Assembly: GCA_016235815.1 (NCBI GenBank)
Contig: JACRIM010000017.1
Coordinates: forward strand, 1 to 64,000
DNA: 64,000 bases
From: Planctomycetota bacterium
GTDB lineage: Bacteria; Planctomycetota; Phycisphaerae; UBA1845; UTPLA1
Direction: 5' to 3'
Numbering within the stretch: the first letter of the stretch is position 1; each line of letters starts with the position of its first letter. Positions 50,945-57,920 of the stretch are shown piece after piece. The position numbers were made by a program, and so were the translations under genes. Below the pieces are notes generated by a model. It was not told the origin of the DNA. It did not search any database and worked only from the letters and a program-made list of their open reading frames with translations.

Positions 50945-51574
50945 ATGCACATTTTTTTCGTCGGGGACGGCGAGCGCGATGCCGTGACGGTACCTACATT
51001 GGTATCGAGGATTCTAGGCCGCAACTTTGGCGAAGAATGCAGAAATTGGGCGAGATTGCATGGCGCAGGTCGCGGCTATAAGAAGAAACTACTGTTTGCC
51101 ATGATCCAAGCGAGGGAAGTGCGGGCCGACGCATTGGTGGCCACGGTTGACAGGGACAGGGACAAGACCGACGCGAAAGTTGAAACTTTGCAAAATACTC
51201 GTGATTCGCGGCGATCTTGGGCTCGGTATATTCCAACAGCAGTGGGACAAGCGATTCCGCACGGTGAAGCCTGGCTCTTGGATGATCCAGCGGCCGTTCG
51301 AACGGTCTTGAAGTTGCCTACAAACCAGCAGATTCCAAACGTAACTAAGGTAAGAAGTCCCAAGTCGGAATTGGAAGACCTTTTGGCTTCAAGTTCGCGA
51401 TATCGTGAGACCCCACGAAGCATCTGGGCCGACATTGCCGATGCTATTGACATTACCCGATATCAGCATTCTGAAAAGACTGGCTTTAGTGAATTCGCCG
51501 ATGATGTGCGACGCGAGATAGGCCCTATCGCCTCAGAAAATTCCCCAGCAACTTCGCCCCCTCCACCGTCATGA
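50945..51574 (+). CDS. TOPRIM/DUF4276-like nuclease partner of the ATPase
   Basis: 209 residues. The start MHIFFVGDGERDAVTVPTL carries the acidic E/D of TOPRIM folds (Glu10), VATVDRDRDK gives the DxD pair (Asp69, Asp71), and IPHGEAWLLDDP matches the EAWLLAD block typical of DUF4276 proteins. With the ATPase two bases upstream it resembles AbiL- or PARIS-like abortive-infection pairs. The Pro/Ser-rich tail overlaps the convergent amidotransferase gene by 50 bases. Family placement is by motif only. Confidence 0.7.
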   Translation: MHIFFVGDGERDAVTVPTLVSRILGRNFGEECRNWARLHGAGRGYKKKLLFAMIQAREVRADALVATVDRDRDKTDAKVETLQNTRDSRRSWARYIPTAVGQAIPHGEAWLLDDPAAVRTVLKLPTNQQIPNVTKVRSPKSELEDLLASSSRYRETPRSIWADIADAIDITRYQHSEKTGFSEFADDVRREIGPIASENSPATSPPPPS

Positions 51575-52109
51575 AGCTCTCGGGGTGAAACTGCACGCCC
51601 TCGAGCGGCAGCGTCTTGTGTCGCACGCCCATGCACTCGTTCTCATCGGTCCAAGCCGAGATCTCGAACTCGGCGGGCAGAGTCTCCGGCTTGATCGCCA
51701 GCGAGTGATAGCGCGTTGCCGTGAAGGGGTTCGACATCCCTGAGAAGATCGTCCGCCCATCGTGCCGAACTTCGCTGGTCTTGCCGTGCATGATCCGACC
51801 TGCCCCCGCGACGGTCGCGCCGAAGCTGTAGCCGATGCACTGATGCCCGAGGCAGACGCCCAACACTGGTATCGTCTTGTGAAAGTGCTTGATCGCGTCG
51901 TTGCTGATGCCGCCCTCGCGCGGCGTGCACGGCCCGGGCGAAATCACCAGATGCGTCGGCCGCAACTCCTCAATCTGCGGGATCGTCACTTCGTCATTGC
52001 GGAACACGCGAATCTCGTGCCGCAGCGCCGGCTCCTCCAGCCCGATCTCTCCAAACCGCTGGACGAGGTTGTACGTAAAGGAGTCGTAGTTATCGATGAG
52101 CACAATCAT
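51525..52109 (-). CDS. trpG: Anthranilate/aminodeoxychorismate synthase glutaminase
   Basis: 194 residues. The class I amidotransferase triad is present: Cys86 in VLGVCLGHQCIGY, with His and Glu in VQFHPESF. It supplies ammonia from glutamine to TrpE or PabB. It stands alone here, so it may serve both tryptophan and folate synthesis, as in other bacteria with a single shared subunit. TrpG and PabA cannot be told apart from sequence. Confidence 0.93.
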   Translation of the reverse strand: MIVLIDNYDSFTYNLVQRFGEIGLEEPALRHEIRVFRNDEVTIPQIEELRPTHLVISPGPCTPREGGISNDAIKHFHKTIPVLGVCLGHQCIGYSFGATVAGAGRIMHGKTSEVRHDGRTIFSGMSNPFTATRYHSLAIKPETLPAEFEISAWTDENECMGVRHKTLPLEGVQFHPESFMTVEGAKLLGNFLRR

Positions 52110-52173: not shown

Positions 52174-54768
52174 TCAGCCTTTCGTGGAGAGGTCTGCCAA
52201 TCGCCGGGCGACGGCCTGCGTCTCGCGATGAGTCGGTCCGCGGGTGGCTCGCAGCGCCGATTCCACGTCAACGAGCAAGGCACGAGCCTCCTCGGTACGG
52301 CCCAAACCGATCAACGCGTCCGCCAGCGTGCGGCAATAGCGCGCACGCGTCATTTTGCTGGCGGGATCATGCGCGTCAACCGTCCGTAGCGCCTCGCGGG
52401 ACAGTCGCTCCGCCATTGCCGCGTGACCGTCGCCCGCAAGCATCTCGGCGGTTTGATCGAGGAGGCTGGCGTAGAGCGCGGGAGACAAGGCACTGGGCGA
52501 GTAGGCGACGGGCGCCAGCGCGATGAACTCCCCATACGCCTCGGGTATCGCGGCGCTGGGTTGCGCTTCAAATCGCTCCATCAGGGCGCGCCACCGCGCC
52601 GCGGCCGAACCGCTGGACTGCGGTACTGTTGTCCGCCCGAACCGGGCCAGCGCCAAGTGCAGATTCCGCCACCCCGTTGCCCGGTCGCCGCGTGCACAGG
52701 AGACATCAACCAAATACGTGAGCGGCACAACGGTCGCGGCCTCGCCCATGGCCTGTGCGTTGAGCGTCATCGACTCGCGAAGCAACTCCTCTGCCCGATC
52801 CAGCCGCCCGAGGTCCGTCAGGCAATGCGCGTAATCCTCGATGCAATTGATGAGCTGCGTATCGAGCGGGGGCAGGACACGCCGACTTAACGCCAGCGCC
52901 AGTTCATATTGATCGGCCGATGCCTCAAGCCTTCCCTGGTGTCGAAGCAGTGCGGCGAGGGCGTGCAGATTCTCCGCCGCGGAATCCGATTCTCCTGCGC
53001 CGAGTCGTTGCCGCATGGCCAGTGCCTGGCGATATAGCCCTTCGGCCTCGTCATAGCGCGCCGGGCGGGAACAACGCGTCAGAGCAAAGGCGAGTGCGTG
53101 AAGACTTTGCGCGACGAGCAGATGTTCTTCGCCGTAAAGTTCCCGGCGGATGGCCAACGCCTCGCGCTGCAGGGGGAGGCCTTCCTCGTCATCCCGGAAG
53201 CTGAGGGCAGCCCCGAGCGATACCAAGCTTTCGGCCAGCTTCGCCCGGTCAAGCGGCTCACTCCGGCGATAGCACTCAATCGCCTGTCGATAGCTGCGAA
53301 TCGCCTCGCTTCGTCGTCGCAGGCTGTTGTAGGTCGTGCCGATCTGATGGTGAATGCCGGCGGCGACGTCGGGCTGGTCGGCCAATTCTCGCGCCGTGAG
53401 CATCGAGGCCTCTTCAAGCACATGTAATCCTGCGGGCGTGGCTCCGAGATGCGTGGGTCCGGCGAGGGCTAGTAACTCCGTCATGACACCGTTGATCTTT
53501 TGCGAGACTTGCCGCGCCCGAGCCTCACGCTCGCGGGCAATGTTTGCGGACCGTGCTGACAACGCCGAGGAGACCGCAAGGCCGCTGATGATCACGAAGG
53601 AAGCCGCAGCGACGCCGAACGCGATTCGATGCTTATGGAGAATGGTTAAGGCTCGCTCGAATCGCCCGGCCTTGTAGGCCATCACCGTTGATCCGTCGAG
53701 ATAGCGCCGAATGTCCTCGGCCAGTTGCTCCGCCGATGCATACCGCCGACGTGGTTCCTTGTGCATGGCCATGGCGACGATGCGATCGAGGGCAAGACAG
53801 CGAGGCAGCCGCTCGTCCGGGTGGGCATCGCGATAAGCCGCGCTTGGCGACATCGGATTCTGCTCACTGATGATTCGCTCGGCCTCATAGCGGGACGCGC
53901 CGCGAAGGTTGTATGGCAAGCGCTCGGCAATCAACTCATACAGCACGACGCCCAGCGAATAGATATCCGTGGCCGTCGAGATCGGTTCGCCGCGGATCTG
54001 CTCTGGGCTGCTGTAGCGCGGTGTCATGGCGTCCATCATCGTTTCGGTGGCCGACGCCGCCGGCTGATCGGTGAGGAGCTTTGCTATTCCGAAGTCGAGC
54101 AGCTTGATCACCCCGCCCGCACTGACGAGGATATTCCCCGGCTTCAAATCACGATGCACGATCAGATTCTGGTGGGCAAAATGCACGGCGAGGCACACCG
54201 CTCGAAACAGTTCGAGCCGTTCGTGCATCGGCAATTTGCCGGTGCGCACATAGTCATCGATCGGAACTCCATCGACGTACTCCATGACGAAATACGGCCG
54301 TCCGTCGTCACACGTGCCCATTTCGAGGATACGACCGATGTTCGGGTGATCGAGCTGGTCGAGAACCCGTTGTTCCCGGCGAAATGCGCGAAGCATCTTT
54401 CGTGAGTCGCGCCCGGGTGGAAGCAGCTTAATGGCCACGGTGAGGGGGCGTTCCGCTGCGTCGTCAGTGGCCTTGAGCACCACACCCATTCCGCCGACCG
54501 CGATGACGCCATCGATGCGATACCGGCCGATTCGGGTCATCGCTCCCAACACACCCGACCATGCGAGGGCATGAGTCGCCGCTCCGGGCACCGGCGCGGC
54601 CAGCCAGTCCTCATCCGGCGGCTCACGGCCGATCAGTTCATCAACGGCCCTGCGAAGCGCGGCGTCCCCGCGACAGGCTCGATCGAGCAATCGCGCGCGT
54701 CGTTGCGGCGCGCAGTCGCTTGCAGCCTCGGCAATCCGTCGGACTTTTTTCCAGGTACCGGTGTCCAT
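52174..54768 (-). CDS. Membrane Ser/Thr protein kinase with TPR sensor region
   Basis: 864 residues. The N-terminal ~80 residues form a helical extension that could contact the sigma factor. Kinase motifs follow: GGMGVVLKAT loop, VAIKLLPPG lysine, HRDLKPGNIL and DFGIAKLLT. One membrane helix (FGVAAASFVIISGLAVSSAL, near residue 380) leads to about 450 residues of TPR-like helices (YRQALAMRQRLGAGESDSAA) outside the cell membrane. It starts nine bases after the ECF sigma gene, a pairing common in planctomycetes and Acidobacteria. It probably phosphorylates the sigma factor or its regulators. Confidence 0.92.
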   Translation of the reverse strand: MDTGTWKKVRRIAEAASDCAPQRRARLLDRACRGDAALRRAVDELIGREPPDEDWLAAPVPGAATHALAWSGVLGAMTRIGRYRIDGVIAVGGMGVVLKATDDAAERPLTVAIKLLPPGRDSRKMLRAFRREQRVLDQLDHPNIGRILEMGTCDDGRPYFVMEYVDGVPIDDYVRTGKLPMHERLELFRAVCLAVHFAHQNLIVHRDLKPGNILVSAGGVIKLLDFGIAKLLTDQPAASATETMMDAMTPRYSSPEQIRGEPISTATDIYSLGVVLYELIAERLPYNLRGASRYEAERIISEQNPMSPSAAYRDAHPDERLPRCLALDRIVAMAMHKEPRRRYASAEQLAEDIRRYLDGSTVMAYKAGRFERALTILHKHRIAFGVAAASFVIISGLAVSSALSARSANIAREREARARQVSQKINGVMTELLALAGPTHLGATPAGLHVLEEASMLTARELADQPDVAAGIHHQIGTTYNSLRRRSEAIRSYRQAIECYRRSEPLDRAKLAESLVSLGAALSFRDDEEGLPLQREALAIRRELYGEEHLLVAQSLHALAFALTRCSRPARYDEAEGLYRQALAMRQRLGAGESDSAAENLHALAALLRHQGRLEASADQYELALALSRRVLPPLDTQLINCIEDYAHCLTDLGRLDRAEELLRESMTLNAQAMGEAATVVPLTYLVDVSCARGDRATGWRNLHLALARFGRTTVPQSSGSAAARWRALMERFEAQPSAAIPEAYGEFIALAPVAYSPSALSPALYASLLDQTAEMLAGDGHAAMAERLSREALRTVDAHDPASKMTRARYCRTLADALIGLGRTEEARALLVDVESALRATRGPTHRETQAVARRLADLSTKG

Positions 54769-54777
54769 GTTGCGTTT

Positions 54778-55305
54778 TCAACGTTCCAATTCGCGGGCCA
54801 GCCACGCCCGGGCCACGCTCCACGCCCGGCGAATGCTTCGCGTTGAGCACTTCAACGCCGCGCCGATTTCAGCATCGCTCAATCCGCCGAAATAGCGAAG
54901 CTCAACGACCTGGGCGAGTTCCGGGTCGAGTTCGCGGAGTCGATGGAGCGCCTCATCCAAGGCAACGAGGTCGACGTTCGCTTCCAACGCCGGAAGTGCG
55001 TCGGGTTCGACTGCTTCCCGCTGCGCATTTCCGCCGCGCTTGAGCGCCGAGCGCCGGCGGGCGTGGTCAACCAGGATGCTGCGCATGGCTTGCGCCGCGG
55101 CGATCAGGAACGCCGCCGTGTTCTCAGGCTTTGACGCCGTAGCCCCGGAAACGCGAAGGAAGGCCTCATGGGCCAATGCCGTGGGTTGGAGCGTGTGGTT
55201 GCCCCGTTCGCCCGCGAGATGTCGCCGGGCAAGGGCGCGCAGCGACGCATAGGTCTCGGTTGGCAGCACAACCGGCATCAGGGCGTCATTGCTGGCCGGC
55301 GGCAT
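54778..55305 (-). CDS. ECF sigma factor, TIGR02999 type
   Basis: 175 residues from ATG 55305 with GGAGAG upstream. Region 2 holds TLQPTALAHEAFLRVSG and region 4 the helix-turn-helix LRELDPELAQVVELRYFG, SDAEIGAALKCSTRSIRRAW. These are the hallmarks of the TIGR02999 sigma family, which lacks a classical anti-sigma and is usually encoded with a Ser/Thr kinase, as here. It would direct a small regulon on a kinase signal. Confidence 0.92.
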   Translation of the reverse strand: MPPASNDALMPVVLPTETYASLRALARRHLAGERGNHTLQPTALAHEAFLRVSGATASKPENTAAFLIAAAQAMRSILVDHARRRSALKRGGNAQREAVEPDALPALEANVDLVALDEALHRLRELDPELAQVVELRYFGGLSDAEIGAALKCSTRSIRRAWSVARAWLARELER

Positions 55306-55578
55306 GTGTCACTCTCCGGGAGGTCCGAAAACGGCGGGGCACGGCGTACAAAAAAAATTGGCCGCGCACACGGGGGGATTGCGCTGATTCAGGTGGCGGA
55401 ACCTGCATTCACGGTGGTCCCGGATAAGTATATCCCTGACCCCTGCTGAATCCAGTCGTGCTCCGCAACGACTCATACCCGGAAACGCGCCGACGCAGCG
55501 CGCCCGGACAGGCCGCGCGCCGTGCGCGGTCAGGTCCCGGTCAAGGCGAGCGTCACGCCAATCAGTGGAGGATGATCA

Positions 55579-56694
55579 ATGATTCGCTCGATTCGATTCC
55601 TCGTTTGCGTCATTACCGTTGCCCTTGGTGCAACGCAGCACGCCCACGCCCGCGGTGGCGAACTGCTCGCCTGTGGATTCAATTCCGATCAGATTCATCG
55701 CTACGACGCGACCACCGGCGCATTTGTCGGCACTTTCGGCGCAGGAGGCGATCTGAATGGGCCGATCTGCGTCACGGTCGGACCGGACGGACTGCTTTAT
55801 GTCTGCAGCGAGGAAGCCAACAAAGTCCTGCGCTATCATCGCACAACTTTCGCTTACATCGACGAATTTATCTTCGACGATTTGGGAACGCCAATGGTTG
55901 ACGAAACCGGCGGGTTGCTCGGTCCGACGGCGGCCATCTTCGGACCCGACGGCAATCTTTATGTTGCGAGCTTCGACAACGACCAGATATTGCGCTACAA
56001 CGGCACAACGGGCGCGTTCATCGACATTTTCGTTACGGCTGCCAGCGGTGGACTGAATGGCCCGGACAATGGAACGATCTTCGGTCCGGACGGGCATCTC
56101 TATGTCCCGTCTTTTTTCGGCAATCAAGTCCTTCGATACGACGGCACAAGCGGCGCATTCCTCAATGTCTTTGTCGGGGTCGGCTCAACCACCAGCGCCA
56201 TGCGCAATCCGCGAACCGTCTTGTTTCGCTACGGCTGCAACGACCTGTTGGTAAACAACGAATTCGGCGGCCGCGTGCAGCGATACAACGCCACGACCGG
56301 CGTGTGGATCGACCGCTTCATTGCCAACGTGCCCGCGCCGACCGGCATGGCCATCGGTCCCGACAAGAATCTGTACATCGCCAGCCTCAATAACCACTCC
56401 ATCACCAAATGGAGCGGCGTGAACGGGGCGGCCCTGGGAACCTTCGTGCCCTCCGGCAGCGGTGGGCTTAACGGCGTCGTCTATATCAAGTTCCTGCCGC
56501 TCACCGGCGATGCGAACTGTGACGGCGTGGTGAGTATTGCGGATCTTGATGGATTCGTTCAGTTGCTGCTCGACCCCGTTGCCTACGCCATTGCCCATCC
56601 GAACTGTGATGCCGCGAATGCCGACGTGACCGGCGACAACGCGACGGACGGTCTGGACATCACTGCGTTTATTACGCTTATCCAATGCCCCTGA
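55579..56694 (+). CDS. Secreted beta-propeller protein with dockerin
   Basis: 371 residues. A signal peptide (FLVCVITVALGATQHAHA) is followed by six or seven NHL/Vgb-like blades of the form GPDGxLYVxSxxxNxVLRYDGTTGAFL, which form a propeller. The end is a dockerin-like pair (TGDANCDGVVSIADLDGF, DVTGDNATDGLDITAF). This is a common planctomycete exported-protein layout; the ligand is unknown. GGAGG precedes ATG 55579. The gene ends in a strong terminator. Confidence 0.88.
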   Translation: MIRSIRFLVCVITVALGATQHAHARGGELLACGFNSDQIHRYDATTGAFVGTFGAGGDLNGPICVTVGPDGLLYVCSEEANKVLRYHRTTFAYIDEFIFDDLGTPMVDETGGLLGPTAAIFGPDGNLYVASFDNDQILRYNGTTGAFIDIFVTAASGGLNGPDNGTIFGPDGHLYVPSFFGNQVLRYDGTSGAFLNVFVGVGSTTSAMRNPRTVLFRYGCNDLLVNNEFGGRVQRYNATTGVWIDRFIANVPAPTGMAIGPDKNLYIASLNNHSITKWSGVNGAALGTFVPSGSGGLNGVVYIKFLPLTGDANCDGVVSIADLDGFVQLLLDPVAYAIAHPNCDAANADVTGDNATDGLDITAFITLIQCP

Positions 56695-56725
56695 CACCGC
56701 TCAGCGCGACGACGGTTTTCCCTTA

Positions 56726-56757
56726 GACTCCTCCCGTTGGATCGGGAGGAGTCTTTT
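56726..56757 (+). terminator. Terminator hairpin that also covers the next gene's Shine-Dalgarno
   Basis: GACTCCTCCCG (56726-56736), loop TTGGAT, CGGGAGGAGTC (56743-56753), TTTT: a perfect 11-bp stem. The GGAGGAG in the 3' arm is the only Shine-Dalgarno for the PLP-enzyme start GTG 56760, seven bases away. Formation of the hairpin would both terminate and hide the ribosome site. Confidence 0.85.
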
Positions 56758-56759
56758 CC

Positions 56760-57920
56760 GTGAATCAGCCACGCCGCCCCGGACTTGAAACCATCTGCGT
56801 CCATCACGCCGAGGACCGCGAGGCCCAGCGCGGCGCCGCCGCGCCGCCTCTCTATCAGTGCAGCATCTTCACCTATCCCGATTGCGAATCTTTCGTCAAT
56901 CGCAAGGCCCCCGGAGACGGCCGCTACGACTACACCCGCGTCGCCAACCCCACGACCGCGCTTCTCGAATCCAAAGTTGCCGAACTTGAACGCGGCGAGG
57001 CCTGCCGGGCCTTCGCCAGCGGGATGGCCGCCATCTCCGCCGGCATCCTCTCGTGTGTGAAGTCGGGCGGCCACATCATCACGGTCGAGACCGTTTATGG
57101 ACCGACGCGCCGCTTCCTCTCCGACTATCTCCCGAAGTTCAACATTGAAACGACCTACATCCGCGGCACCGACATCGAGCAGTTCCAAGCCGCTCTTCGG
57201 CCGAACACGCAGCTGATCCATCTCGAATCTCCATCGAGCTTTTTCTTTGAAGTGCAGGACATGCCCGCTGTTGTCGCCCTCGCCAAGAGCAAGGGCATCG
57301 CCGTCAGCATCGACAATTCCAACGCCTCGCCGATGTTTCAGAACCCGCTCGATCACGGCGTCGACCTCGTCATGCACACCGCTTCGAAATACATCGGTGG
57401 CCACAGCGATCTCGTCGGTGGCCTTGTCGTCGCGTCGCGCGAGCGCATCGAAAAACTTGTCTCTCTCGAAGGCGAACTGCTGGGCGGTATCGCCGATCCT
57501 TTCGCGAGCTGGCTTATGCTTCGCGGCCTGCGCACCCTCGGCGTGCGGATGGATCGCCACTACAAAAGCGCCCTTACCATCGCCCGTCTGCTGGAGATGG
57601 ACTCGCGCGTCGCCCGCGTCTGGTACACCGGTCTCGACTCCCACGCCCAGGCCCGTCTCGCCAAAAAACAGATGCGCGGCCACGGCTGCCTCGTGAGTTT
57701 CCAATTGCAGAACCCGACGCGCGAACGCACCTTTGCGGTGGTCGAAGCCCTCAAGCTCTTCGGCATCGCCGTTAGCTGGGGCGGCTTCGAAAGCCTCGCC
57801 ATCCCCATCGAGACCCCCGACCCGGCCACCGGCAAGCCGACGTGGATCATCCGTCTGAGCATCGGATTGGAAACGGTCGAGGATTTGAAAGCGGATTTGT
57901 ATCAGGCGCTGGATGTGTAG
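56760..57920 (+). CDS. Trans-sulfuration PLP enzyme (cystathionine/methionine gamma type)
   Basis: 386 residues from GTG 56760. The Cys/Met-metabolism fold has [33 protein letters not shown], and the PLP lysine Lys210 in [16 protein letters not shown]. The family includes cystathionine gamma-synthase, gamma-lyase and methionine gamma-lyase, and sequence by eye does not separate them. If it is a methionine gamma-lyase it would feed methanethiol to the MddA-like enzyme at 28 kb. Its start is buried in a hairpin, so expression is probably tightly controlled. Confidence 0.88.

Follow-up and report, generated by a model that had tools for sequence, protein, structure and literature searches.

The analysed window, a 64,000-nt stretch of a contig from a Planctomycetota bacterium, contains two genes that run in the same direction and are separated by 65 nt, nearly half of which is occupied by a hairpin. 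The upstream gene (55579..56694, + strand, stop codon TGA at 56692-56694) encodes an NHL-type propeller protein (NHL, E 1e-7) with a weak dockerin-like C-terminus (Dockerin_1 just below cut-off). The downstream gene (56760..57920, + strand) encodes a fold-type I PLP enzyme of the Cys/Met metabolism family (Pfam Cys_Met_Meta_PP, E 3e-115). Its GTG at 56760 is the only possible start, since the frame is closed by the stop at 56724-56726 and holds no other start before the conserved domain, which is reached within ten codons. An earlier note on this DNA had described the product as a sulfur-metabolism enzyme. The family assignment is clear, and among solved relatives the methionine gamma-lyases come nearest. 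No cut-off of an NCBIfam equivalog was reached, however, and the top-scoring model was that of an archaeal alanine/glutamate racemase, itself below its cut-off. "Sulfur metabolism" is therefore to be read as a loose family label. A second paralogue of the PLP enzyme (37% identity), which is more widespread, is encoded elsewhere in the same genome (C24:18754).

The hairpin between the two genes has a perfect 12-bp stem, formed by a 5' arm (AGACTCCTCCCG, 56725..56736) and a 3' arm (CGGGAGGAGTCT, 56743..56754), both on the + strand, with the loop TTGGAT (56737..56742) between them. A short U-tract, TTTT followed by CC, occupies 56754..56757 (+), and the sequence 3' of the stem is TTTCCGTG. The earlier note had counted 11 perfect pairs followed by TTTT. 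The structure is real, but it comprises 12 pairs, and TTTT is obtained only when the stem is counted one pair shorter; with all 12 pairs included the remainder reads TTT-CC-GTG. The computed minimum free energy of the hairpin alone was -23.7 kcal/mol (dG about -22 to -24), and the fold of the 101-nt region around it gave z = -3.2, with none of 200 shuffles equally stable. Across 376 kb of the genome three perfect stems of at least 12 bp were seen against 0.4 expected from dinucleotide shuffles, so the hairpin is not a chance structure; a perfect stem longer than 9 bp was present in only 2 of 698 gene upstream regions.

The 3' arm carries the only Shine-Dalgarno (SD) sequence of the PLP-enzyme gene, GGAGGAG (56745..56751, +), as had been recognised earlier, although the gap to GTG 56760 is 8 bases and not the seven then given. 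In RNA initiated upstream of the hairpin, the SD was predicted to be unpaired with a probability of 0.00014, the lowest value among 335 genes with an SD in a 1.12-Mb sample of the genome (median 0.41), and its opening was predicted to cost 19.3 kcal/mol, versus 4.8 kcal/mol in an RNA starting at 56737. When the RNA starts in the loop, the predicted unpaired probability rises to about 0.48, near the genome median. Most modelled starts between 56733 and 56743 gave values of 0.43-0.49 (0.37 at 56736), and with 5' ends up to 56727 the SD was still shut. These predictions agree with two claims of the earlier note, namely that a read-through transcript keeps the site closed and that a transcript starting in the loop opens it. 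Coupling to ribosomes from the propeller gene is unlikely to open the stem, since these ribosomes stop 30 nt before it. Control by heat had been suggested as well. In the predictions, however, the SD was 99% paired at 85 °C and no temperature up to 85-90 °C opened it; heat control was accordingly rejected as a candidate, and with closure persisting at 85 °C a heat switch at the SD appears very unlikely.

To place the hairpin among its likes, stretches of the same genome amounting to 1.12 Mb, with 711 genes called by a codon model, were searched for terminator-like hairpins 3' of genes. Such hairpins, with long GC-rich stems and T-runs, were found behind 53 of the 711 genes, and they begin at a tight distance from the stop codon (median 29 nt, quartiles 23-33). 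The hairpin after the propeller gene begins 30-31 nt past the stop (30 nt for the 5' arm as delimited above) and is followed by TTTTCC; in both place and shape it matches the terminators of the genome. Its U-tract, with 4 T of 6, is among their shorter T-runs, and it was not listed by a stricter consensus scan. Since a distance of 30 nt is typical of terminators in this genome, the hairpin most likely ends the propeller gene, short U-tract notwithstanding, which was also the opinion of the earlier note. For comparison, the tR2 terminator in E. coli was repressed when close to a stop codon and attained full efficiency beyond about 30 bp (PMC4824070). The hairpin resembles Rho-independent terminators in its GC-rich 12-bp stem, 6-base loop and position 30 nt after the stop; a T-run follows but is short (TTTT, then CC), and the hairpin differs from them in that the 3' arm doubles as the SD of the next gene. 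A literature search on overlapping terminators and SD sequences returned general papers only.

The PLP-enzyme gene was compared with nine same-family orthologues that have a usable 5' end, all from outside the genus of the present genome. None of the nine had a hairpin over the SD, and the final 60 nt of their leaders offered perfect stems of 3-6 bp at best. The SD itself is kept in all nine (AGGAG, GGAGG, GGAG or AGGA, at -11 to -14); beyond SD and start the orthologous leaders were too diverged to be aligned. The hairpin was also absent behind the propeller orthologues, both in the relative G014 (65% identity) and in nine more distant ones, and an inherited end of the propeller gene was rejected on this basis.

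This distribution, together with the ordinary position and shape described above, is what would be expected if the hairpin were a plain terminator, the closure of the SD being a side effect of tight packing that has no consequence, as hardly any RNA would read through, and a promoter for the enzyme gene lying somewhere near. With the hairpin missing from the relatives, nothing indicates that the overlap between terminator and SD has itself been under selection. On the other hand, those of the 53 terminator-like sites that lie beside a downstream start and were inspected do not bury an SD in the same way, and the short U-tract makes some read-through likely, in which case closure of the SD matters. 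We consider a plain terminator rather unlikely as the full account of the structure.

The absence of the hairpin in orthologues also bears on the possibility of a regulated translational switch, in which the enzyme would be translated from the propeller transcript once the hairpin had been opened by a protein, small RNA or ligand. In its favour, the SD is closed more tightly than that of any other sampled gene, and the gap lacks a recognisable strong promoter. However, a perfect 12-bp stem that needs 19 kcal/mol to open and is shut at 85 °C in prediction exceeds the stability of typical thermometers or aptamers, no orthologue has the hairpin, the genome holds no second copy of it within 3 mismatches, and nothing points to a helper acting in trans. 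RNA thermometers and translational riboswitches likewise sequester the SD in a stem directly upstream of the start codon, but the perfect stem here is far too stable for melting within a useful range, comes without a conserved aptamer and is absent from orthologues. Rfam gave no match at gathering score in the whole window, and nothing relevant at E <=1 between 56500 and 56900, where a sub-threshold Acido-1 match lies on the other strand inside a coding region. A riboswitch or conserved leader RNA was rejected on these grounds, and an inherited ligand switch appears unlikely, as judged from the lack of an Rfam match and of the hairpin in all nine orthologues. The suggestion of the earlier note that the element might be a ligand-controlled or small regulatory RNA structure is thus not supported, the 65-nt gap being moreover nearly filled to one half by the hairpin itself. 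A regulated translational switch seems to us quite improbable.

The gene order around the PLP-enzyme gene differs from that in its relatives. In eight of the nine orthologues the neighbour is trpG/pabA, facing away and mostly 90-200 nt off, and the ninth has another divergent gene. In the window trpG/pabA (51525-52109, - strand) also faces away from the PLP-enzyme gene but lies 4.6 kb off, and the space between them (52174..56694) is taken up by a block consisting of a kinase gene (-), an ECF sigma factor gene (-) and the propeller gene (+). In G014, trpG adjoins the PLP-enzyme gene without interruption (L130), and the kinase, ECF and propeller genes (59, 68 and 65% identity, respectively) are found elsewhere (L129). 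On the simplest reading, the trio moved into the gap between trpG and the enzyme gene in the lineage of the present genome, and this move would have given the enzyme gene its first co-directional upstream neighbour. With the trio in that gap, transcription from the propeller gene is now directed into the enzyme gene. No direct repeats longer than expected by chance were found at the ends of the inserted block. The kinase-ECF sigma-propeller trio looks like a movable gene set.

The hairpin could also be a functionless inverted repeat, produced by a recent template switch, by an inverted duplication of the SD region or by the arrival of the propeller block. The hairpin is unique to the present genome, and an AGGAGTC context at the SD is shared with two relatives, L009 (GAGGAGTCTGAGC) and L010 (AAGGAGTCAGCA). 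This shared context makes an old 3' arm and a new 5' arm probable, as such an origin would have it. A random inverted copy is, however, not expected to show the layout of the genome's terminators, lying 30 nt past a stop codon and ahead of TTTT, and shutting the sole SD would carry a high cost for a gene with no promoter of its own. A repeat devoid of function is thus the explanation to which we give the least credence.

In the relatives the PLP-enzyme gene is divergent from its neighbour and therefore needs its own promoter there. A candidate -10 box, TAGACT (56724..56729, + strand, at -36), overlaps the first five bases of the 5' arm. A de novo two-block EM promoter model drifted to an uninformative motif and left TAGACT unranked, and it was replaced by an analysis of hexamer enrichment before genes. 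TAGACT was fifth of 64 TANNNT hexamers (5 seen, 1.4 expected, the site at 56724 included); other enriched hexamers were TATAAT (16 seen, 1.9 expected), TAGAAT (16 and 2.4), TATACT (7 and 1.1) and TACAAT (14 and 2.9). The pattern TA[TGC]A[AC]T, to which TAGACT belongs, is enriched 15-70 nt before genes of this genome, with 63 other instances versus about 11 expected, and the enriched -10 hexamers have a median position of -43 (quartiles -59 to -31). The related hexamer TAGAAT is present at -31 before the PLP-enzyme orthologue in two relatives. No recognisable -35 was found for TAGACT (best match 2/6), and -35 hexamers are weak for most -10 boxes in the genome. A start 7-11 nt past TAGACT would fall at 56736-56740, that is on the last base of the 5' arm or in the loop as judged from spacing only, and would free the SD. 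TAGACT is thus a reasonable, somewhat favoured candidate for the enzyme gene's own promoter.

The perfect dyad symmetry of the hairpin lies exactly at this candidate promoter, and the 30-bp palindrome over the -10 box might therefore be read as the DNA site of a dimeric repressor, with the RNA hairpin being incidental. A search of the 4.58-Mb genome for a further copy within 3 mismatches found none. A plasmid collection gave no match. The relaxed core GACTCCT-N6-16-AGGAGTC has one further occurrence in the genome and one in 16 relatives, never at an orthologous gene, and a reversed control pattern also matches once. A repeat or recurrent operator was rejected accordingly, there being no second copy and the relaxed core being rare and unrelated. 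The position 30 nt after the stop and the T-run also fit a terminator better, and we regard an operator as very improbable.

Taken together, the best explanation is that the hairpin acts both as a terminator and as a translational insulator between two unrelated genes, a reading to which we assign a probability of roughly 0.6. Most polymerase arriving from the propeller gene would stop at the hairpin, acting as a Rho-independent terminator, and the RNA that reads through would fold its SD shut and stay untranslated. The PLP-enzyme gene would be expressed from its own promoter, with the -10 box TAGACT (56724-56729) overlapping the 5' arm, and this transcript would start in the loop and have a leader of about 20-25 nt in which the SD is free. 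The insulator would have arisen after the kinase-ECF-propeller block came between trpG and the PLP-enzyme gene. So understood, the locus is best explained as a compact insulator of an already known type, which combines ordinary parts in a single genome, and not as a new RNA switch.

Its nearest known counterpart is gene e (lysozyme) of phage T4, where a hairpin sequesters the SD (McPheeters et al. 1986, reviewed in PMC3014915). In long transcripts of gene e the structure that closes the SD cuts synthesis about 100-fold, whereas RNA made from promoters that overlap the 5' strand is free of the structure and is translated (PMC3014915); I-TevI and mobE of T4-like phages are similar cases. On our best reading the present hairpin would work like the lysozyme-gene system, in that upstream-initiated RNA closes the SD and a start inside the structure, here predicted, frees it. 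The two differ in that gene e is an experimentally shown temporal switch served by late phage promoters, whereas the present case concerns a bacterial chromosome, a candidate promoter and a hairpin that is also terminator-like. Read-through hairpins are also familiar from Tn10 and Tn5.

If the insulator reading is true, a gene may acquire a new neighbour upstream and yet remain independent of it across a gap of only 65 bases, because one hairpin stops the polymerase and blocks translation of the read-through RNA. This would be a cheap insulator design. It would also call for caution with compact intergenic regions, where a terminator and a ribosome site can be the same bases. The hairpin reveals no new class of regulatory RNA. 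It is conceivable, but doubtful at present, that a single 30-bp element serving as upstream terminator, downstream -10/start region and conditional cover of the SD is a recurrent separator of tandem genes in compact planctomycete intergenic regions.

Some other hairpins near gene starts were noted in the same genome. On C12 (- strand, 10432) a TACGAT lies just before a terminator-like hairpin with a gene start 17 nt after it, a possible promoter-terminator overlap and possible cousin of the present element. A perfect 12-bp hairpin at C32:6485-6513 (GGGAGCGCCGGG-AGA-CCCGGCGCTCCC), one base before the ATG of a tatC-like gene, may be another such cousin. The leader of a gene for a small ribbon-helix-helix-like protein (L064:15044, equivalent to C58:235044) has nested palindromes (ACTCCTATAGGAGT and ACACTCTACAGGGAGTGT) that also pair with the SD, and looks like an autoregulatory operator. 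Finally, small hairpin repeats of the form CACCGGTT-NNN-AACCGGTG recur between genes on C58, C36 and C38.
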